The notes below the pieces were generated by a model. It was not told the origin of the DNA. It saw nothing but the letters and a program-made list of their open reading frames with translations, and did not search any database. A DNA stretch of 35,428 bases from Actinomycetota bacterium. Lineage in GTDB: Bacteria > Actinomycetota > Acidimicrobiia > Acidimicrobiales > Ilumatobacteraceae. Positions within the stretch are counted from its first letter, which is position 1. Each line of letters begins with the position of its first letter. The stretch lies in assembly GCA_027592925.1 (NCBI GenBank), contig JAQCJO010000010.1, positions 1 to 35,428 of the forward strand, given 5' to 3'. The translations under genes and the position numbers were made by a program. Below are positions 4,709-35,428 of this stretch, one piece after another.

Positions 4709-5763
4709 GCAGATTTACTCCGCTCGATGAACGCTTCGCGCACCAAATTCCGGAGCCGTTTCCAAACACAGTTACGTTCCATCACGAATGGCGCGAAAGC
4801 CTCTTTTTTGTGATGCAGCGACCCGATGGACCAGGCGATGTAGTGATTTCAACTCTTGCACATTTTCCAGCGAGGGGCGAGATGGACGCGCTGCAGTTGG
4901 GTCGGGTGGGTGGAAACCCATTGATCACCAAACATGTGCGAACTGTTGATGGCGACCAAGACATATTTAAAGTCGGTGGGGTCACGATTGACATTATTGA
5001 GCCACTCAAGAAGGTGCGACTTCAGGTTGTTGAATCGCCCGCAACATCGGCCACCCTTGACATCACGTTTACTGCCCGTACCCAGCCGTATCAATTGCGC
5101 CGTGGCGCGATGAAAGCAGGACATGAAGTTGTGTGGGATCAGTCGCACATGTTTCAGAGCGGCACATATAACGGTACCTACACATATAAAGGTCAGACAC
5201 ACAAAGTTGAAAACTGGTGGGGACAACGTGATCACTCATGGGGTATCCGTGCACACGGCAGATGCCCGATGTGGATGTGGCTGGCTATTCAGCTTCCAGA
5301 AGGGATGCTCGGTGTTTGGAATTGGGAGTATCCAAATGGCGCTCGCGTGTACACCGATGGATGCTTTGCACCGTCTGATGGCAGCGATCCAATTCCTGTC
5401 ATTGGTTTTGAGCACGACTTGCAATGGCAAGACGAGAACGGAAACGAAACGTCGTATGACCGCTTTGGAGAAAATGTGCGCGGACTTGGTGGCGTAGTGC
5501 ACTTCACATTGCAAGGAGGTCGAAAAATTACTGTTACCGCACAAGGTAAATGGGCGCAGCGCTACAGCGACATCACCAATCGCACAGGTGCTGCGCTCGG
5601 CGGTGGCTTAAACGAAATGGTGGTGACGACATCTGACGGCACAAAGGGAACTGCTATATATGAAGTGACGGGCAGTTGGCATCACAAGTATTTTCCGCTG
5701 GCACGAGGTGAACGTCTGCCGCCAAATGGCATCACGCCAGCCGAAGACGAAATAGCTCGCTAG
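4705..5763 (+). CDS. AttH/CrtC-like lipocalin-fold protein (hydroxyneurosporene-synthase-like)
   Basis: A 352-residue soluble protein, predicted mostly beta. It has the family's most recognisable stretch around residues 170-182 (NWWGQRDHSWGIR), followed by aromatic-rich strands (MWMWLAIQLPEG, VWNWEYPNG). This pattern belongs to the AttH/CrtC-type double-lipocalin proteins, some of which hydrate isoprenoid double bonds; many members have no known activity. It is translationally coupled to the kinase upstream (4-base overlap), so both may act on one hydrophobic or steroid-like substrate (inference). There is no signal peptide. It ends 14 bases before the convergent LLM gene, with a hairpin between. 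Fold assignment is moderately sure; activity is unknown. Confidence 0.65.
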   Translation: MSRFTPLDERFAHQIPEPFPNTVTFHHEWRESLFFVMQRPDGPGDVVISTLAHFPARGEMDALQLGRVGGNPLITKHVRTVDGDQDIFKVGGVTIDIIEPLKKVRLQVVESPATSATLDITFTARTQPYQLRRGAMKAGHEVVWDQSHMFQSGTYNGTYTYKGQTHKVENWWGQRDHSWGIRAHGRCPMWMWLAIQLPEGMLGVWNWEYPNGARVYTDGCFAPSDGSDPIPVIGFEHDLQWQDENGNETSYDRFGENVRGLGGVVHFTLQGGRKITVTAQGKWAQRYSDITNRTGAALGGGLNEMVVTTSDGTKGTAIYEVTGSWHHKYFPLARGERLPPNGITPAEDEIAR

Positions 5764-21690: not shown

Positions 21691-22539
21691 ATGACCGCGC
21701 AACCATTCTTCGTTCGCGTGCCAGCAAGTTCCGCAAATCTCGGTCCTGGCTTTGATGCGCTCGGGATGGCGCTCTCGGTTTATCTCGAGATGGGTCCTGT
21801 AATCAACGGCCAAGTTCCCTTAGACGCAAAAATGATCGACGAGTATCACCCAGGGCGTATTGCTTTTCGCAGTTACGGCGGCGTAGGAGACGTTTGGGTG
21901 CGCTCCAAAATCCCCATGGGTCGTGGTCTCGGTTTCAGCGGAGCCGCAAGAGTGGCGGGGGTCGTTGCGGCTCATGCCCAACTGCACGGCTTGAGCATGG
22001 ATGCTCTCAATGCCGCACGCAAAGATCTGTTGCACGCGAGCACGGAACTTGAAGGGCATCCAGACAACGTTGCAGCCTCGCTTGTTGGTGGTGTTACTGC
22101 GAGCGCTTCGGGCGAAGTAGTGCGTTTGCCGCTTGCGCTTGATCCGATAATTCTTGCGTGGGTGCCCGACACACAGACCAGCACTGAAAAATCTCGTACC
22201 GCAATAGCTACAACTTTGTCGCTCAGCGATGCAGTGGTCAACATTGGTCATACGGCATTACTCATGGGTGCGCTCGCTACTGGCGATATTGCGTTGTTGC
22301 GCATCGCAACACAAGATCGCATTCATCAAGACATTCGATTGGCGCATGCACCAACGTCCAAGGCTGCACTCGACGCAGCCTTAAGCACTAATGCGTGGTG
22401 TGCGTGGTTGTCTGGTTCGGGACCAACAGTTGCGGTGATGTGTGCCAAATCGGACGCGAAGCACATTGCTTCGCAGTTACCCCAGTCTGGTGATGTGCTC
22501 GAGTTGACTATTGATCAACACGGCGCAGTAATCATCTAG
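21691..22539 (+). CDS. thrB: Homoserine kinase (GHMP family)
   Basis: Phosphorylates L-homoserine on the way to threonine. 282 residues. GHMP-kinase motifs: VRVPASSANLGPGFDALG at the N-terminus, the ATP loop PMGRGLGFSGAARVAG (the usual GLGSSAA is here GLGFSGAA), HPDNVAASLVGG, and the C-terminal CAWLSGSGPTVAVM. The N-terminal motif is specific for homoserine kinase. The stop codon shares CTAG with the stop of the convergent AcuI-like gene (22536-22539). Co-transcription with trpD is likely (6-base gap). Confidence 0.9.
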   Translation: MTAQPFFVRVPASSANLGPGFDALGMALSVYLEMGPVINGQVPLDAKMIDEYHPGRIAFRSYGGVGDVWVRSKIPMGRGLGFSGAARVAGVVAAHAQLHGLSMDALNAARKDLLHASTELEGHPDNVAASLVGGVTASASGEVVRLPLALDPIILAWVPDTQTSTEKSRTAIATTLSLSDAVVNIGHTALLMGALATGDIALLRIATQDRIHQDIRLAHAPTSKAALDAALSTNAWCAWLSGSGPTVAVMCAKSDAKHIASQLPQSGDVLELTIDQHGAVII

Positions 22540-23540
22540 AGATTTGGATCAACGAGTACTCGACCTTGCATCTTGCCAGCAAGAATATTGTCGAGTTGTG
22601 CAGGTAGTTCTGCAAGGCCAATAATTTGTGCGTGCTCGGTGTCGAGCCACGATGGTCTCAAGTCGGTCGCAATGCGTGTCCACATTGCACGACGGATGGC
22701 GATGGGTGTTTGCACACTGTCGATACCGAGCAGATTGACTCCGCGCAGGATAAACGGCAGCACTGTCGTTGCTAATCCGTTGCCACCAGTAAGGCCACTT
22801 GCCGCAACCGATGCTCCGTAGTTGAGGGTGCGCAACACGTAGGCGAGTGTTGATCCACCAACACAGTCGACCGATCCTGCCCATCGCTCGCGTTCGAGTG
22901 GTTTTGGCGACTCTGCGCTGGTTTCTTCGCGCAAAATAATGTCACTTGCGCCAATCGACTTCAGCCAATCGCTCGATGCTGCCTTGCCGGTAGACGCAAC
23001 AACTTCATAGCCGCGCGCTGCCAACATGCCAACCGCAACTGAACCGACACCGCCGGTAGCGCCAGTGACCAATACAGGGCCAAAGCCTTTAGTGAGACCG
23101 GCGCGCTCGAGTGCATCAACTGAGAGCGCTGCAGTAAAGCCAGCAGTTCCGATCATCATCGCAGTGCGAGTGGTCATGCCTGTTGGTACTGCAACCAACC
23201 ATTGCGCTGGTATTCGTGCCAATGCGCTGTATCCGCCATGGCGCGCAACACCGATGTCGTAACCATGAGCGATGACCTGATCGCCAACTAGAAAGTCTGG
23301 GCTTGCCGACTCAACAACGGTGCCCGCAAGATCAACGCCCGCAATCAACGGATCGATGCGTGCAACTCGACCCTTCTCGCTTGTGGCTAGACCGTCTTTG
23401 TAGTTGATGCACGAGTACTCCACGGCAATCAACACGTCACCTTCACCCAGATCGTCTACTGACACGTCGGTGATCTGTTGTGTCCATACGTCGTTGATCT
23501 TGCCGACAGTAAATGCGCGGGATGTTGTTGGGTTGCTCAT
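22536..23540 (-). CDS. acuI: YhdH/AcuI-type medium-chain reductase (acryloyl-CoA reductase-like)
   Basis: A 334-residue NADPH-dependent oxidoreductase of the zinc-less MDR superfamily, YhdH/YhfP/AcuI branch. Features: INYKDGLATSEKGRVAR and PLIAGVDLAGTVVES in the catalytic domain, GTAGFTAALSVDALE, the nucleotide loop VLVTGATGGVGSVAVG, and GASVAASGLTGG with LRGVNLLGIDSV. The branch includes AcuI, which reduces acryloyl-CoA to propionyl-CoA in DMSP catabolism, but other enoyl/quinone substrates are possible. A GAAAGGCG run precedes the ATG. It lies 30 bases downstream of the XRE regulator on the same strand, so it may be co-transcribed and co-regulated with it. Confidence 0.82.
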   Translation of the reverse strand: MSNPTTSRAFTVGKINDVWTQQITDVSVDDLGEGDVLIAVEYSCINYKDGLATSEKGRVARIDPLIAGVDLAGTVVESASPDFLVGDQVIAHGYDIGVARHGGYSALARIPAQWLVAVPTGMTTRTAMMIGTAGFTAALSVDALERAGLTKGFGPVLVTGATGGVGSVAVGMLAARGYEVVASTGKAASSDWLKSIGASDIILREETSAESPKPLERERWAGSVDCVGGSTLAYVLRTLNYGASVAASGLTGGNGLATTVLPFILRGVNLLGIDSVQTPIAIRRAMWTRIATDLRPSWLDTEHAQIIGLAELPAQLDNILAGKMQGRVLVDPNL

Positions 23541-23570: not shown

Positions 23571-24506
23571 TTATGCGCTGAGCTGTAATTCTTGTACAAC
23601 GGCGTTGGTGTGTGCCGACCAGCTTTTTGCTGAAACATTCTTTGGTCGCACAAGAGTGAGCAATCGTTTGGCTGCAGTATTGCCAGTTGTTATTTGCTTA
23701 TTGCGCGCAGACCAAACATTGTCATGACTGCGCAGTAGGTCTTGGGCGACCTCGTCTGGATTGTGAAGGCTTAAAAGATTGTCGATGCGGTACACGCAGA
23801 TGTTCCATGCCGCAAACGCACCAACCGCTTGAGTCGCGTCGGTAACCACTTGCTTCCAATCATGCTCAAATTCAACAATCGACATTGGGTTGTTGACATG
23901 GTTCATCAGTGAAGATGTTTCATCAAAGATAATTCCGATATCGCTTCCCGAAATGTTTGCTTGGTGTCTAGACAATTCGTTGCTGAGTGATGCGGTAATC
24001 GCTTTCGGTTTGTACGCATTGTTGATATCGCGATGCAGTTTGATGGAAAGGCAGTTGTGATCCTTGTGTGTGTCGTGATCTGTTGGGCCGCCAGCACACA
24101 GCCACTCTTGGGCTGTCTTGTCTGTTGCCGTTGCACTCTTTGTCGAGGCAGTACGAGCTCTTTCGAGAGATGTCATCATGTCATCTTCCATAAAAAGCAA
24201 GACGTGTTTGCCTGCAGGTCGAATTGCTTGCGAAAACAATTCGTTTGCGCTCATTCGCAATGCCGTGGCAAGCCTGGCGATCATGTCGACTGTGGGTGAT
24301 GGGCTCATTGTGCTGCTTCTGTTGGCATCGACGCCATTTCTTGATCGCTCTAAGGCAACCACGTATGGCTGAGAGATGTTTGCCCGCTGGGCAAGTTGTC
24401 GCGTGGTGAGACCGAGTTGCAGGCGACGATGGGTGAGCAACTGGGCAAAGCGAACAGCGTCGAACACGAATGATTCGTGTTTGTGGTGCTTGATTTTGTT
24501 GCTCAC
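23571..24506 (-). CDS. XRE-family helix-turn-helix regulator with large C-terminal domain
   Basis: A 311-residue protein with an N-terminal HTH (about residues 17-75: LLTHRRLQLGLTTRQLAQRA, then ISQPYVVALERSRNG as recognition helix). The domain is completed by PSPTVDMIARLATALRMSANELF. The remaining 200 residues match nothing I recognise. They are not a cupin or a peptidase by eye and could sense a ligand. The start is a GTG at 24506, nine bases from a -10-like element and without Shine-Dalgarno sequence, so the mRNA is probably leaderless. It is divergent from the DUF2182 gene, and the 26 bases between them hold an 18-bp perfect palindrome, the likely operator for both directions. Confidence 0.85.
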   Translation of the reverse strand: MSNKIKHHKHESFVFDAVRFAQLLTHRRLQLGLTTRQLAQRANISQPYVVALERSRNGVDANRSSTMSPSPTVDMIARLATALRMSANELFSQAIRPAGKHVLLFMEDDMMTSLERARTASTKSATATDKTAQEWLCAGGPTDHDTHKDHNCLSIKLHRDINNAYKPKAITASLSNELSRHQANISGSDIGIIFDETSSLMNHVNNPMSIVEFEHDWKQVVTDATQAVGAFAAWNICVYRIDNLLSLHNPDEVAQDLLRSHDNVWSARNKQITTGNTAAKRLLTLVRPKNVSAKSWSAHTNAVVQELQLSA

Positions 24507-24510
24507 GGTT

Positions 24511-24528
24511 TGATCACTATAGTGATCA
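24511..24528. promoter_or_regulatory. Perfect palindrome: shared operator and overlapping divergent promoters
   Basis: tgatcactatagtgatca is an 18-bp perfect palindrome filling the gap between two divergent genes. Its centre gives TATAGT on both strands (plus 24518-24523, minus 24521-24516). Each hexamer ends exactly nine bases before its gene's start codon (ATG 24533, GTG 24506), the spacing of a -10 box for a leaderless transcript. The XRE regulator beside it is the obvious binder. The sequence is certain, the function inferred. Confidence 0.75.
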
Positions 24529-24532
24529 GATC

Positions 24533-25294
24533 ATGGAAACAACAAGTCAACCAGTTGGGCTTCGTGCAATGCCGCGACCCGATGTTGCGTGGGTTGGCTT
24601 TTTTATGTTGGTGACACTCGGCTGGATTGCTCTGATTCGGGCATCAAGTGCGCAGGCCACACAGCATCAAGTTGGATGGCGCGCAACGTTTGCAATGTGG
24701 GCACTCATGTCATTGGTGATGATGTCTACAACCGCCGTTCCGGTGCTTGGTGCATTGCGCAACATATTGCGCACCGGATCAATTTCGGTGTGGTGGATGT
24801 TTGTTGCAACGTATTGCGCAATGTGGATTGGTTTCTCAGTCGTTGCTACGTCGCTACAAAGAATCTTGACAGATTTTGGGTGGGTTGAGGATCACCGTTC
24901 TGCGATGTGGTTGAGCGGAGTGCTACTAGTTGTTGCTGGCGCATACCAATTTTCGGCGCTGAAAGAGAATTGCTTGACGCAGTGCGTTACTCCTATGACT
25001 TTCTTTATGCGTTATTGGCGCGACGGTATTGCCGGAGGAATGAAAATGGGCATTCGGCATGGTTTGACATGCATCGGATGTTGCTGGGCACTCATGTTGC
25101 TCGCGTTAGCAGGAGGAATGTCAAACGTGTTGTTCATGGTGTTGAGTGCGGCAGTCATGACAATAGAAAAATTTCCTGCGATCGGCAAGAGAGTGACGGT
25201 GCCGCTTGGTGTCGCACTTCTGATGGGCGGGTTTGCGTTACTCGCGCTGCAATTTGTTTTTGGCGCGCAACCAACAAATCATTTACACAACTAA
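24533..25294 (+). CDS. DUF2182 predicted metal-binding membrane protein
   Basis: A 253-residue protein with six or seven hydrophobic segments. Family marks: WALMSLVMMSTTAVP (56-70, Met-rich helix), GAYQFSALKENCLTQCVTP (136-154; Cys147, Cys151) and GLTCIGCCWALMLLA (177-191; Cys180, Cys183, Cys184). The Met, Cys and His residues suggest metal or thiol chemistry in the membrane; no biochemical function is firmly known for the family. It is probably leaderless from the palindromic promoter and is first of the plus-strand cassette, 34 bases ahead of the DUF1326 gene. DUF2182 and DUF1326 genes often neighbour each other, which suggests a joint role. Confidence 0.85.
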   Translation: METTSQPVGLRAMPRPDVAWVGFFMLVTLGWIALIRASSAQATQHQVGWRATFAMWALMSLVMMSTTAVPVLGALRNILRTGSISVWWMFVATYCAMWIGFSVVATSLQRILTDFGWVEDHRSAMWLSGVLLVVAGAYQFSALKENCLTQCVTPMTFFMRYWRDGIAGGMKMGIRHGLTCIGCCWALMLLALAGGMSNVLFMVLSAAVMTIEKFPAIGKRVTVPLGVALLMGGFALLALQFVFGAQPTNHLHN

Positions 25295-25328
25295 TTCAAG
25301 AAACCCTAAAAATAGAAAGCGATACAAC

Positions 25329-25937
25329 ATGGATCCATGGTCACTAGAAGGCGAACTTATTCTCAACTGCAATTGCACGGTTTTTTGTCCATGCGTGATT
25401 TCCCTCGGCACTCACCCTCCGACCGAGGGGTATTGTCAGGCTTGGGCGGGTGTGAGAATCGACAAGGGACACGCTGGATCAGTTGATCTTTCGGGTCTCA
25501 ACGTTGGCATGTTGCTCGACATTCCGGGAAAGATGGAGCGAGGCAACTGGACACTTGCATTGTGGATTGATGATCGCACAACTGATGAGCAGTTCGCCAA
25601 ACTCGAAGAAATCTTCCGGGGTTCAGCTCGTGGCACCACTGGGTTATTCAAATTGCTTGTTGGCGAGTATCTCGGTGCCGAACGCGCACCGATCACCTTC
25701 ACTACCGAAAATGGCAAGCGCACGTTGTCGGTTGGCAAGTTCATTCAGGGCTCAGTCGAGCCGATTGGTGGACTTCGCGAATCCGAAGAAGTCAGCGTTG
25801 TCAACACTCAATACTGGATGGGACCAGAAGTGATCGTGGCAAAGGCACTGCAGGGCAGAGTCCGTGCATTTGGCAGAGTCTGGAACTTTGAGGGCCGCAG
25901 CGCCGAAATCTGCACCATCAAATGGGTGGGACCATGA
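25329..25937 (+). CDS. DUF1326 cysteine-rich protein
   Basis: A 202-residue soluble protein. The N-terminus carries the dense Cys pattern LILNCNCTVFCPCVISLG (Cys14, 16, 20, 22) and EGYCQAW (Cys36), typical of DUF1326 and suited to metal binding. The rest is beta-rich with WTLALWIDDRTTDEQF and GLFKLLVGEYLGAERAPI. No signal or membrane segment. The ATG at 25329 is chosen because the family begins with the xxWxLEGE stretch; the upstream frame overlaps DUF2182. Its TGA overlaps the ATG of the DmdA-like gene (25934-25937), so the two are translationally coupled. Function unknown. Confidence 0.83.
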   Translation: MDPWSLEGELILNCNCTVFCPCVISLGTHPPTEGYCQAWAGVRIDKGHAGSVDLSGLNVGMLLDIPGKMERGNWTLALWIDDRTTDEQFAKLEEIFRGSARGTTGLFKLLVGEYLGAERAPITFTTENGKRTLSVGKFIQGSVEPIGGLRESEEVSVVNTQYWMGPEVIVAKALQGRVRAFGRVWNFEGRSAEICTIKWVGP

Positions 25938-27058
25938 GCCTTCCTGCACTTGCAATCACGCGTCGCACGCGCTCAACACCCTTTTCGAGTCGCATCGAAA
26001 AATTTGGTGTCGAGGCATACACAATTTATAACCACATGTTGTTGCCAACACGTTTTCGTGGGGTAGAAGAGGATTATTTCCATTTACGTGAAAGCGTGCA
26101 GATTTGGGATGTCTCGTGTCAGCGACAAGTCGAAATTGTTGGACCAGACGCTGCTCGGCTTGCTCAGATGTTGACTGTGCGCGACTTGCGCAAACTCGGC
26201 ATTGGCAAGTGCGCACTTGCACCTGTGTGCGATGAGGATGGTTTTTTGCTCAATGATCCTGTTGCTATTCGTGTCGCAGAAGATCGATTCTGGTTTTCTA
26301 TTTCCGATCTCGACATCTTGTTGTGGGCCCAGGGCATAGCTCTTGGAATGAAACTCGATGTCAAAATCTTTGAGCCAAATATTTGGCCGCTTGCGGTGCA
26401 GGGGCCTCGTGCCGAAGATGTGATTGTCGAAGTGTTTGGTGAGGCGGCTCGGGCAACAAAGTTTTTTCGTTTTGACTCGCTTACGTTTGGCAATCATCCA
26501 TTGCTCGTTGCGCGCAGTGGCTGGAGCGCTCAGGGCGGGTTCGAAATTTATGTCGACGATGCCGAGATCGGTTTGCAGTTATATGACGCTCTCGATGCGG
26601 CTGGCCAAAAATACGGCATACGCCCGGGTTGCCCAAACTTGATCGAACGTATTGAAGCAGGCCTCATGACATATGGAACCGACATCACACGCAACGACAC
26701 ACCGCTCGAAGGTGGCATGGCTCAATATGTTGGTCTAGACGCTGACATCGAAGCAATTGGGCTTGATGCAATTCGTGCGCGTGCCAAAAAGGGAATTGAT
26801 CGTGCAATTGTTGGTATCACGATCGATGGCGACAAGGTGCCAGCCAATCGCGCGCCATGGCCAGTCATTGCTGATGGCAAGCAGATCGGTTCAGTCACAT
26901 CTGCAGTGTGGTCACCCCGTCTACAGACCAACGTCTCGCTGGGTCAAGTGGCGATCGATTTCACGGCTGTCGGCACACAGATGAGCGTTGAGACACCAGA
27001 TGGCATGCGTTCTGCGCAGGTCTCGCCAGTTCCTTTTCCCGGAGCGACAACTCACTAG
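25934..27058 (+). CDS. dmdA: GcvT-fold protein, dimethylsulfoniopropionate demethylase (DmdA)-like
   Basis: A 374-residue tetrahydrofolate-dependent aminomethyltransferase-fold protein. Its N-terminus (ITRRTRSTPFSSRIEKFGVE, then AYTIYNHMLLPT), the stretch VQIWDVSCQRQVEI, PLAVQGPRAEDV, SGWSAQGGFEIYV (195-207) and RPGCPNLIERIEAGLMTYG (230-248) agree with DmdA as I remember it, more closely than with GcvT or sarcosine oxidase. Trp197, Glu204 and Tyr206 coincide in numbering with residues I recall from the Pelagibacter structure; this needs checking. DmdA moves a methyl from DMSP to THF, giving methylmercaptopropionate. dmdB, dmdC and dmdD are not in the window. It starts in the stop of DUF1326. 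A related methylated substrate is the main alternative. Confidence 0.7.
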   Translation: MSLPALAITRRTRSTPFSSRIEKFGVEAYTIYNHMLLPTRFRGVEEDYFHLRESVQIWDVSCQRQVEIVGPDAARLAQMLTVRDLRKLGIGKCALAPVCDEDGFLLNDPVAIRVAEDRFWFSISDLDILLWAQGIALGMKLDVKIFEPNIWPLAVQGPRAEDVIVEVFGEAARATKFFRFDSLTFGNHPLLVARSGWSAQGGFEIYVDDAEIGLQLYDALDAAGQKYGIRPGCPNLIERIEAGLMTYGTDITRNDTPLEGGMAQYVGLDADIEAIGLDAIRARAKKGIDRAIVGITIDGDKVPANRAPWPVIADGKQIGSVTSAVWSPRLQTNVSLGQVAIDFTAVGTQMSVETPDGMRSAQVSPVPFPGATTH

Positions 27059-27086
27059 TTCGCGCCAATAGGTAAAGATTGTGCAC

Positions 27087-27917
27087 ATGACAGATACGAC
27101 AACGATTGAAGTTGATGGAATCAAAATAGAGATTCGCCGGCGAGGCATGGGGCGACCGTTATTGGTGATCCATGGTTGGTCGGCAGACCATCGCTACATG
27201 ATGGCCGACCTTGAACCAAATTTTGACGAGTCATCAACATGGCAACGAATTTATTTTGATTTACCGGGTCACGGCACCACAATTGCGCCCGACTGGCTAG
27301 ACAATCAAACGCAGATGTTGGAGATTTTGACAAAAGTTATTGAACAGGCGATCGGCGATCAAAAGTTTGGTGTAATTGGAAACTCCTATGGAGGGTATTT
27401 ATCGCTCGGTCTTGTTCGAAAAATGCCTCACCAACTCTTGGGGGCTGCACTTTTGGTGCCCGATCTTCCGAATGATTTGAATAATCGTCAAACCACGGAA
27501 TCTTCGACAATCGTTGAGGACATGACGTTGTTTGGCAACTTGCAGTCAGATGAACAGTGGATCCCCGCAGGATTGGTTGAGCACAGTCAATATGCGCTTG
27601 ATGAGATACGAGCACATGACATGCCTGGCTATCGAGCGTCAGATGACGATTTGCTCGAGCGTCTCAACAACAACTATTTACTTCCGGTTGAAGTTCGTCA
27701 TGCAGGTGACCCCTTCGCACAACCGAGTCTGATCGCTTTGGGGCATCAAGATGCCACGGTGGGTTACGAGCGGCAGTTGCAGTTGCTGTCCGAATTTCCG
27801 CGTGCCACCGTTGCCGTTATCGACATGGTAGGGCATTACTTGGGCCGAGTCGAAAGGCCCAAAGTCTTTAATGCCCTTGTACGCGACTGGATTGAGAGGG
27901 TCGAAATATCTCTGTAA
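27087..27917 (+). CDS. Alpha/beta-hydrolase
   Basis: A 276-residue hydrolase. Oxyanion-loop HGWSADH follows the third strand, the nucleophile elbow is GNSYGGY (Ser in G-x-S-x-G), the acid is probably Asp in LGHQDATVGY, and the catalytic His is in MVGHYLGR. The cap domain (about residues 125-210) is acidic. ATG 27087 is preferred over GTG 27081 since ggtaaag lies about 10 bases upstream. It follows the DmdA-like gene by 28 bases and is probably the last gene of the XRE-controlled cassette. Substrate unknown; a thioester or ester product of the preceding enzyme is conceivable. Confidence 0.85.
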   Translation: MTDTTTIEVDGIKIEIRRRGMGRPLLVIHGWSADHRYMMADLEPNFDESSTWQRIYFDLPGHGTTIAPDWLDNQTQMLEILTKVIEQAIGDQKFGVIGNSYGGYLSLGLVRKMPHQLLGAALLVPDLPNDLNNRQTTESSTIVEDMTLFGNLQSDEQWIPAGLVEHSQYALDEIRAHDMPGYRASDDDLLERLNNNYLLPVEVRHAGDPFAQPSLIALGHQDATVGYERQLQLLSEFPRATVAVIDMVGHYLGRVERPKVFNALVRDWIERVEISL

Positions 27918-28038: not shown

Positions 28039-28254
28039 ATGAGCGATACGAATCAACCCCAACAACCACTGGTGATCAGTTGCGACACCTGCGTCATGCA
28101 AAAGACATCGGCATGCGACGACTGTTTGATGTCATTTTTGTGTGGCGATCCGCATGAAACAGCGGTGGTGTTTGATCTTGCCGAGCAGCGGGCAGTTCGC
28201 CTGCTCGCAAATGCCGGAATGGTGCCTACGCTTCGGCATCGTGCGGTTATCTAA
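28039..28254 (+). CDS. Small cysteine-rich protein
   Basis: 71 residues with Cys15, Cys18, Cys26, Cys29 and Cys35 (CDTC, CDDC and LC), enough for a zinc or Fe-S site. The second half is helical (VFDLAEQRAVRLLANAG). A strong ribosome binding site (gaggag) precedes the ATG. Its 3' end overlaps the likely start of queG in another frame. I do not recognise a named family; small proteins of this type occur in Actinobacteria. Role unknown, possibly tied to QueG maturation or unrelated. Confidence 0.75.
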   Translation: MSDTNQPQQPLVISCDTCVMQKTSACDDCLMSFLCGDPHETAVVFDLAEQRAVRLLANAGMVPTLRHRAVI

Positions 28255-34024: not shown

Positions 34025-34402
34025 ATGAACACATTGATTTACGATGGAGATTGTGCCTTTTGTCTCCGTTGTGTGCAGTGGATGCAAAAACACTTCAAAC
34101 GAGTTCCTCACATTGTCGCTTGGCAAAAAGCAGATCTAAGGACGTTGGGTCTCACCGCTGAACAATGTCAAACAGCCTTGCAGTGGGTGAGCGCAGATTC
34201 GTCACAGATTCTGAGCGCGCACAAGGCAGTGGCTCGTGTGTGCAAGGACGCTGGAGGCTGGATCACTGTGGCTGGTTATGCGTTGTCGTTACCGGTTGTA
34301 TCGCCAATTGCGGGCGTTGTGTATCGCTGGGTGGCGCGCAATCGTCAAAAAATGCCAGGCGGCACGGCTGCATGCGCAATTGACTTCGAAAAAAAAATCT
34401 AA
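34025..34402 (+). CDS. DCC-family (DUF393) thiol-disulfide-oxidoreductase-like protein
   Basis: A 125-residue protein with the family start LIYDGDCAFCLRCVQW (Cys10, Cys13, Cys16), a DGxCxxC thiol motif. The remainder has the family's SLPVVSPIAGVVYRWVARNR. Thought to act in thiol-disulfide exchange; substrates unknown. Divergence from SURF1 raises a link to cytochrome-oxidase assembly (inference). Its TAA overlaps the stop of the convergent SET-domain gene (CTAA at 34399-34402). Confidence 0.85.
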   Translation: MNTLIYDGDCAFCLRCVQWMQKHFKRVPHIVAWQKADLRTLGLTAEQCQTALQWVSADSSQILSAHKAVARVCKDAGGWITVAGYALSLPVVSPIAGVVYRWVARNRQKMPGGTAACAIDFEKKI

Positions 34403-35127
34403 AGAGTTCTTCGCTCGTTTAACTGCTGTGCCAATTGATCAAGAGACTGCTGATCAAGTGTTTGTAGAAGTTCGCTCTGTTGTTTGTCGGTGAAACATAG
34501 ATCAATCAGCGTGTTCCATGATGCATTGGGCATGCCGGTTGTGATGCGTAGTGCGAGCATCAGCGCTTGTTGCGGATTGATGTCATAGTTGTTCATCAGA
34601 TTTTCGGCATCCCGTTTTGACAATGGTCGCGCCGTACGAGTGGCATCAATTTTCCGTTGCACATATGGCGAGAACATGTTGTGGTACCGACTGTGAAGTT
34701 CGGGTAGTTTCCAGTCATTGCCAGAAACGCGACCACGACAATTATCGGATCTACACGCGCACTCAAACTCGACATAGTTAGACGTGTCGCTCATGGCGTA
34801 GTCATAGGTAAGTTCTTCGCCAACTGCAATTGGACCCATGGCGATGAGTTGTGTTGCATTGCGCATTCCACAGTTTGGCAAGCATGAATGATTGATGGAG
34901 TCGCCTGGCTCGCGCGACTCTGGGCCGAGCACAAATTGATTCACATCAATTTGGATTGATCGGCTGCGTTGCTCGAGTGGGTAAGTCTCGAAGTTGACTC
35001 GATTCACAACTATTCCGCCAAATGTGGCGATTATGGTGCCCATTGGAATTGGGGTGACGGCAAAACTGCCAAAGCCTTTTGGCGCGATTTCGCGAGCTTC
35101 TGCAAGAGGTGAAAGATAATTGCGCAC
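34399..35127 (-). CDS. SET-domain protein (lysine methyltransferase-like) with post-SET motif
   Basis: From GTG 35127 (GGAGGG five bases upstream) the protein has 242 residues. The SET core is clear: KGFGSFAVTPIPMGTII (17-33), the active-site motif NHSCLPNC (79-86) and GEELTYDY (103-110) with the catalytic Tyr. A post-SET-like CACRSDNCRG (123-132) probably binds zinc. The last 100 residues are helical and unassigned (HSRYHNMFSPYVQRKID, then two Gln/Leu-rich repeats). It would methylate a protein lysine with S-adenosylmethionine; the target is unknown. A longer reading from 35304 exists, with a Cys-rich N-terminus, but lacks support from a ribosome binding site. Base use resembles neighbours. 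Confidence 0.82.
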   Translation of the reverse strand: MRNYLSPLAEAREIAPKGFGSFAVTPIPMGTIIATFGGIVVNRVNFETYPLEQRSRSIQIDVNQFVLGPESREPGDSINHSCLPNCGMRNATQLIAMGPIAVGEELTYDYAMSDTSNYVEFECACRSDNCRGRVSGNDWKLPELHSRYHNMFSPYVQRKIDATRTARPLSKRDAENLMNNYDINPQQALMLALRITTGMPNASWNTLIDLCFTDKQQSELLQTLDQQSLDQLAQQLNERRTL

Positions 35128-35261
35128 GTCGACCCTCCGGTCGCGACCTGCGTGGCCGCCCGAGTACACAGCACCAACTCCGCCCGCTGTGGTGCAACCA
35201 TGATATCGGCAGGTATCGTTGTTTGGGCAACATCGTCTCGGTCTGCTCGACCGGGCCGGTG

Positions 35262-35428
35262 GTGCACTACAAGTTGCATCAGGAGAGACCAATTGGTCCG
35301 GCAACCGGGGTCACGCCCACGGTGCCATCTCATCCGCAAGGATGGGAGATGTGGTTTCGTCGTTTAGACGAAGCAACGGGCCGGCTCAGTTGGGCGAGCC
35401 AGAAGGAATTTTTTATGACCCGACATGA
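35262..35428 (+). CDS. Partial gene, 5' end only, unknown
   Basis: A plus-strand reading open to the window edge, giving HPQGWEMWFRRLDEATGRLS and then WASQKEFFMTRH. The amino-acid mix looks like real coding sequence, and it would be divergent from the SET gene. The start is undecided (GTG 35262, GTG 35322 or ATG 35349). No family recognised. The alternative is an extended SET N-terminus on the other strand. 35128-35261 shows nothing else. Confidence 0.35.
   Translation, partial: MHYKLHQERPIGPATGVTPTVPSHPQGWEMWFRRLDEATGRLSWASQKEFFMTRH

Follow-up and report, generated by a model that had tools for sequence, protein, structure and literature searches.

A DUF2182-DUF1326 gene pair accompanies predicted dimethylsulfoniopropionate demethylase and acryloyl-CoA reductase genes in two bacterial phyla and may handle a soft metal

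What do two protein families without firm function do at the head of a demethylase gene row? The question is raised by a 35,428-nt stretch of DNA (the window) from the 1.66-Mb genome of a freshwater member of the actinobacterial family Ilumatobacteraceae, in which an XRE-type regulator gene faces genes for a DUF2182 membrane protein, a DUF1326 protein and a relative of DmdA, the demethylase of dimethylsulfoniopropionate (DMSP). DMSP is an algal sulfur compound, and in surface waters large amounts of sulfur and carbon pass through its demethylation. Comparison with other genomes, mostly metagenome-assembled genomes (MAGs), shows a conserved unit in which AcuI-XRE faces DUF2182-DUF1326-DmdA on the opposite strand. 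The DUF pair heads all Acidimicrobiia cassettes seen and most dmdA/acuI gene rows in the Rhodobacteraceae genomes sampled. We are confident that it is a functional part of a DMSP/acryloyl-CoA regulon.

The enzyme activities of the cassette proteins are assigned here from their families. The demethylase gene (25934-27058, plus strand; 374 aa) encodes a protein with GCV_T and GCV_T_C domains that scores 493 bits against NF009133, the dimethylsulfoniopropionate demethylase model, whose cut-off is 410. Its best PDB match is Pelagibacter ubique DmdA (3tfh, E 1.2e-100), with the GcvT structure 1yx2 at only 3.1e-35. By the curated cut-off the third cassette gene is a predicted DMSP demethylase, a more specific name than the label DmdA-like in a first-pass annotation of this DNA. 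That annotation had also proposed a regulated unit joining a Cys-rich membrane/soluble protein pair to a tetrahydrofolate (THF)-dependent demethylase for a methylated sulfur compound, and this part of its reading is supported. The cut-off is likewise passed by the DmdA proteins of L034, L041, L050 and L055 (range in other loci, 471-527 bits), and the distant homologues of L043 (345 bits) and L044 (284 bits) fall below it. The L041 protein (L041:1094-7588, genome G034, another genus of the same family) scores 527 bits and stands without the DUF pair. Behind its gene come one resembling betaine-aldehyde dehydrogenase genes, then genes for a TauD-family dioxygenase and a BKACE enzyme, and one similar to 3-hydroxyacyl/carnitine dehydrogenase genes; the setting may be carnitine or betaine demethylation.

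The reductase gene (22536-23540, minus strand; 334 aa) lies 30 bases behind the regulator on the same strand and is likely co-transcribed with it. The first-pass annotation placed the facing genes correctly but overlooked this one, which belongs to the unit. The protein matches YhdH/AcuI structures in the PDB and passes TIGR02823 (422.9 bits; cut-off 297) but fails the AcuI equivalog NF051456 (344 bits; cut-off 440), so we name it AcuI/YhdH-family rather than AcuI proper. The Tritonibacter mobilis AcuI copy is likewise below the NF051456 cut-off, at 421 bits. The window's genome has nine enoyl-CoA hydratase matches, not resolved into DmdD or AcuH.

The unit recurs throughout the genus. DUF2182 and DmdA co-occur across 22 same-genus genomes, and every carrier contig that is long enough shows AcuI-XRE and DUF2182-DUF1326-DmdA on opposite strands. 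This arrangement holds over DmdA identities of 61-98% and regulator identities down to 36-40%, at varying genomic sites: thrB/queG-like genes are the neighbours in the window's group, and ribonucleotide reductase is the neighbour in G018 and G022. A scan of named genomes with DUF1326 found 22 Acidimicrobiia MAG loci, all with XRE, DUF2182, DUF1326 and DmdA, and most of those whose contig extends far enough also have AcuI. Where a source is recognisable it is a lake, e.g. Baikal, Lanier or Erken; DmdA in marine Acidimicrobiia has already been published (PMC13280387). Several lake Acidimicrobiia also encode, 2-3 kb downstream of the cassette, a TroA-like binding protein and an ATPase of a metal-type ABC transporter (L055:8891-10863, L067:5797-8490).

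The boundary of the unit differs from that first drawn. The first-pass annotation described a regulator facing DUF2182-DUF1326-DmdA-hydrolase over 26 bases with a perfect palindrome, and we confirm these coordinates and families. Its gaps of 34, -4 and 28 bases are also reproduced: 34 bases separate the DUF2182 gene (24533-25294, plus strand; 253 aa) from the DUF1326 gene (25329-25937, plus strand; 202 aa), DUF1326 and DmdA overlap by 4 bases at ATGA, and 28 bases separate DmdA from an ATG at 27087 in the alpha/beta hydrolase gene (27081-27917, plus strand; 278 aa, Abhydrolase_1), or 22 if its GTG start is used. Failure of the gene order to recur in related genomes had been set as the refuting condition for a four-gene unit. 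The DUF2182-DUF1326-DmdA order does recur in relatives, but the hydrolase follows DmdA only in G000 (the window's genome) and its closest sisters G006 and G017, with other genes there elsewhere; the four-gene cassette is therefore not recurrent, and the hydrolase was rejected as a member. In this genome it is possibly part of the cassette's transcript.

The same pair stands in an equivalent position in another phylum. The remaining 58 loci of the scan are nearly all alphaproteobacterial, mostly Rhodobacteraceae, and their DUF1326 proteins are 64-71% identical to the window's. In most of them DmdA and/or AcuI come after DUF2182-DUF1326 on the same strand, and in 46 the pair faces a GntR-FCD regulator gene. 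We sampled 198 Rhodobacteraceae genomes (the family of T. mobilis), with a neighbour distance of 5 kb and DmdA at 59% identity or more. The core DUF1326 subfamily occurs in 95 of them, and at least 84 of the 95 copies have an AcuI or DmdA gene, or both, no more than 5 kb away. Among the matches listed, at least 54 copies have both, 21 have AcuI only, 9 have DmdA only and 11 have neither; same-strand DmdA/AcuI neighbours are all downstream. None of the 28 other Rhodobacteraceae DUF1326 copies (30-45% identity) is near AcuI or DmdA among the matches listed. DmdA is present in 76 of the 198 genomes, 66 of which also carry core DUF1326 (Fisher p 7e-19, a value that, like the E-values given here, ignores kinship). 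Since the DUF pair adjoins them in this sample, known dmdA-acuI operons often carry two more genes. We found no mention of the pair in such operons in the searchable parts of the literature, though it lies beside most dmdA in these genomes, and a literature search with the locus tags SPO1910-1912 returned no paper.

Individual loci illustrate the pattern. On Marinovum algicola plasmid pMaD9 (MALG_05028/05029), a GntR gene faces DUF2182-DUF1326-acyl-CoA synthetase-DmdA-AcuI-like dehydrogenase-SBP56, and the annotation labels both DUF proteins 'involved in DMSP breakdown'. On Antarctobacter pSMS3-2 a GntR gene faces DUF2182-DUF1326-DmdA-MDR oxidoreductase. Several Rhodobacteraceae genomes with core DUF1326 keep the DUF pair and AcuI without any close DmdA, so the common chemistry is DMSP or acryloyl-CoA and not methanethiol alone. 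The gene row of a Hyphomicrobiaceae MAG (L073) is in line with this: a GntR gene faces a long dehydrogenase that looks like a crotonyl-CoA reductase, followed by DUF1326, a DmdB-like gene and SBP56.

Conservation across the two phyla is higher for DUF1326 (65%) than for DmdA (51%), and distances of the two proteins correlate (r 0.79). The trees of both proteins largely separate the cassette sequences of Acidimicrobiia from the alphaproteobacterial ones. The DUF1326 of an actinobacterial MAG (L074:5263-6609) is an exception: this core-type DUF2182-DUF1326 pair groups with alphaproteobacterial copies and has no DmdA or AcuI nearby, and is either an exception to the linkage or a recent transfer.

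The regulatory region is conserved along with the genes. The XRE-type regulator (23571-24506, minus strand; 311 aa, GTG start) has an N-terminal helix-turn-helix with HTH_31/HTH_3 above cut-off and a C-terminal domain with no Pfam match, and it lies opposite DUF2182 in all Acidimicrobiia cassettes. The 26-base gap between them (24507-24532) contains the perfect 18-base palindrome TGATCACTATAGTGATCA (24511-24528). Of 26 Acidimicrobiia cassettes examined, 24 have its core ACTATAGT, with GAT/ATC-type flanks, between the regulator and DUF2182 genes, and the remaining two have the variant AATATAGT there, even where regulator identity is down to about 36-40%. Because of this conservation the palindrome is not a chance occurrence. 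The operator GATNACTATAGTNATC is a single site in the 1.66-Mb genome at up to one mismatch, and relatives have at most one per genome; a wider XRE regulon was rejected, with no second operator in G000 at that threshold.

TATAGT hexamers resembling -10 elements overlap within the palindrome, at 24518-24523 on the plus strand and 24516-24521 on the minus strand. Each lies 9 bases before a start codon, which suggests divergent leaderless promoters under the operator; we infer such starts, as well as repression and an inducer. Alphaproteobacterial loci have a different repeat before DUF2182, TTGTCAGACA...TGTCTGACA, conserved between the GntR-FCD regulator and DUF2182 (L080, L079, L088, L089 and L120, at about 5040-5200) and a candidate dmdA/acuI operator. 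With XRE and a palindrome in one phylum and GntR and a different repeat in the other, the two phyla head the regulon with the same DUF pair under unrelated regulators.

The DUF proteins themselves offer clues to their role. DUF2182 (PF09948, 171 bits; cut-off 28.7) belongs to a family now named PpoB2. Its invariant or near-invariant residues are W56, M59, M63, M64, W98, K144, C147, C151, C180, C183, C184 and E212, which include the motifs MxxxMM, CxxxC and CxxCC, and its model is a helical membrane protein (pLDDT 89). The cassette genes include no copper-enzyme client for it; the genome-wide search for a client covered SBP56, which is absent. In DUF1326 (PF07040, 172 bits; cut-off 25) a signal peptide is not evident. 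The residues C14, C16, C20, P21, C22 and C36 are invariant across 56 diverse sequences (CxCxxxCPC...C), and the DMSP-type subfamily adds specific residues including Y162-W163-M164, R179, R183, R190, E193 and C195. Neither protein has a sequence relative in the PDB at E <= 1, and our literature search on DUF1326, DUF2182 and PpoB2 found just the work on Marinomonas, plus unrelated uses of the name.

We propose the following model, to which we give an even chance as a whole: a DMSP/acryloyl-CoA cassette under a dedicated regulator, with an attached pair handling a soft metal, probably Cu(I). The XRE protein would bind the palindrome overlapping both divergent promoters and, as long as no DMSP catabolite is present, repress or gate both gene rows, its own gene with AcuI and DUF2182-DUF1326-DmdA. 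DmdA would then transfer a methyl group from DMSP to THF, and AcuI would remove acryloyl-CoA. DUF2182 and DUF1326 would be a specialised form of a two-protein module that is widespread, the former a Met/Cys-lined membrane protein and the latter a cytosolic barrel whose metal site is built of five cysteines. The likeliest task of the pair would be to acquire a soft metal, probably Cu(I), store it and pass it on, and so keep it controlled while DMSP breakdown yields thiol or sulfide ligands and thiol-consuming acryloyl compounds. We infer the mode of regulation, the metal, its identity as Cu(I) and the physiological role of the pair. The soft-metal role taken singly is tentative and falls somewhat short of an even chance. 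Slightly less probable is the broader claim that DUF2182-DUF1326 is an unrecognised core part of how bacteria of two phyla demethylate DMSP and deal with acryloyl-CoA, a Cu(I)- or methylthiol-handling pair on which DMSP degraders depend.

The copper reading is backed by the reported role of PpoB2, the Met/Cys motifs and some neighbours of general DUF1326 copies outside DMSP loci. On a Mycobacterium gallinarum plasmid (L214:4128-8912) CopC is encoded beside DUF1326, in Caballeronia a tyrosinase gene lies about 2.3 kb away from the pair, and in Chroococcidiopsis a four-helix protein that binds copper is encoded about 4 kb from DUF1326. Annotated plasmid copies of the pair have no constant third gene. 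Within Acidimicrobiia, DUF1326 of any kind is found in only 19 of 296 genomes; leaving aside the window's genome and the cassette of G207, these copies are about 24-42% identical and lack both DmdA and AcuI as neighbours, and nearly all of them adjoin DUF2182, usually in the order DUF1326-DUF2182. On a plasmid of Rhodococcus sp. M8-50, from nitrile-contaminated soil, the row is acetate-CoA ligase, aliphatic amidase, DUF1326, DUF2182 and an iron-chelate ABC transporter (L217:1355-9961); a link of the general pair to acrylamide or acrylate is conceivable there.

Several observations weigh against the proposed model. We know of no copper enzyme in DMSP demethylation up to methanethiol. None of the 23 genus genomes searched, among them those that carry the cassette, has the Cu-dependent methanethiol oxidase (SBP56). 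On plasmids, the general pair mostly stands without a copper gene in its vicinity. The fold search with DUF2182 was uninformative, with nothing above Z 5.6, so its metal path is read from sequence only. Finally, 11 of the 95 core copies, among the matches listed, and L074 lack AcuI/DmdA neighbours at the thresholds used, some of them at contig ends.

The best-surviving alternative, though an unlikely one, is that the pair handles sulfur: DUF1326 would bind or relay methanethiol or sulfane sulfur from DMSP, and DUF2182 would export or anchor it. On the M. gallinarum plasmid DUF1326 is followed by a CsoR/CstR-type regulator, DUF302, TauE and an MBL-rhodanese protein, which is the make-up of a sulfide/persulfide detoxification operon, and SBP56, of the methanethiol oxidase family, follows the unit in pMaD9 and L073. 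(TACCCCC/GGGGGTA palindromes resembling CsoR/CstR operators precede DUF1326 and the regulator in L214.) However, at least 21 core Rhodobacteraceae copies have AcuI but no adjoining DmdA, and several genomes lack a close DmdA, so methanethiol from DMSP demethylation is not common to all carriers. The role reported for PpoB2 is copper transfer (PMC2855505).

Slightly less probable again is that DUF1326 is itself an enzyme of the acetoacetate decarboxylase (ADC) fold, converting a toxic acyl or keto intermediate derived from DMSP, with its cysteines as a metal or nucleophile site. The DUF1326 model (pLDDT 94.9) does have an ADC-like fold (Foldseek E 2.9e-5, prob 1.00). The best VIA match has Z 11.6, a root-mean-square deviation of 3.7 and 159 aligned residues, and 12 ADC-superfamily entries reach Z 10.7-11.6 with 151-160 residues aligned, clearly ahead of the group that comes next, at 8.6. 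The many subfamily-specific invariant residues and the strong conservation of core DUF1326 across phyla also fit an enzyme. But no lysine is invariant or even 90% conserved in the sequence alignment of the 56 proteins, and the Schiff-base chemistry of ADC is thus unsupported. In addition, all five signature cysteines are kept in general copies with no DMSP context, and DUF1326 is nearly always accompanied by a membrane protein.

It is improbable that the pair delivers copper to methanethiol oxidase (SBP56/MtoX), the enzyme that follows DMSP demethylation in the pathway. This oxidase is a Cu enzyme (PMC5739008) and SBP56 shares the gene row in pMaD9 and L073, but a SCO1/MauG set already serves MtoX (PMC5739008), which is predicted to be periplasmic, whereas in DUF1326 no signal peptide is evident. 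With SBP56 missing from the genus, as noted above, and near the unit in only 1 of 80 loci, we rejected this explanation for this genus.

Least probable, by a little, is import of DMSP or another methylated compound for DmdA by DUF2182, an uptake role the first-pass annotation had also suggested: an importer is wanted, as no BCCT transporter occurs in the 24 genus genomes searched (ABC importers were not searched for), and polytopic DUF2182 lies in the pair directly upstream of dmdA, but elsewhere DUF2182 pairs with DUF1326 without DmdA or AcuI, its conserved residues are Cys/Met-rich, and its nearest characterised relative, PpoB2, is reported to act in copper transfer, not solute import (PMC2855505), leaving that role unsupported.

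If the broader claim of an unrecognised core part is true, a major sulfur pathway of seas and fresh waters would depend on copper or thiol management, which had not been suspected. A set of freshwater actinobacteria carries what is predicted to be a complete local switch for DMSP. Because the same pair heads the equivalent operon in many marine Roseobacters, this overlooked part of a major sulfur-cycle pathway can be tested. Genetically tractable Roseobacters put the role of two widespread families, and metal or thiol limits on DMSP use, within reach of experiment.

Two other features of the window lie outside the unit. A 71-aa Cys-rich protein (28039-28254), 94-96% conserved in sisters and belonging to no Pfam family, is encoded directly before the QueG-like gene, and an open reading frame at 34399-35304 resembles, from its translation, a bacterial SET-domain protein.

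Parts of the cassette resemble known systems. In Roseobacter dmdA-acuI operons, under study since 2012 (Todd et al. 2012, PMC3338564; PMC4029986), DMSP demethylase and acryloyl-CoA reductase genes are also linked and co-regulated, but acuI is directly 3' of dmdA on the same strand; in the cassette AcuI lies behind XRE on the strand opposite to dmdA, and DUF2182-DUF1326 precede dmdA, a pair that the consulted passages of those accounts do not mention. The acuR-acuI-dddL operon of Rhodobacter sphaeroides (PMC3338564) likewise combines a local regulator, AcuI and a DMSP enzyme, but the regulator is TetR-type and the enzyme a DMSP lyase, and the accessible text names neither DUF2182 nor DUF1326 for it. 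In Marinomonas mediterranea, PpoB2 (COG5486) is reported to pass copper to the tyrosinase PpoB1 (PMC2855505). The ppoB1-ppoB2 operon thus also partners a DUF2182-family gene with a metabolic enzyme; its client is a copper tyrosinase, whereas DmdA is not known as a copper enzyme, and the consulted sections of that paper mention no DUF1326 partner. General DUF1326-DUF2182 pairs of Actinomycetota, Proteobacteria and haloarchaea have the same two families side by side with the same invariant Cys, but differ in identity (about 24-45%), usual order (DUF1326 first) and the lack of DmdA/AcuI or a constant third gene. Finally, Marinovum pMaD9 has the core pair with DmdA and an AcuI-like gene, as here, but its row has a GntR regulator, a DmdB-like gene and SBP56.

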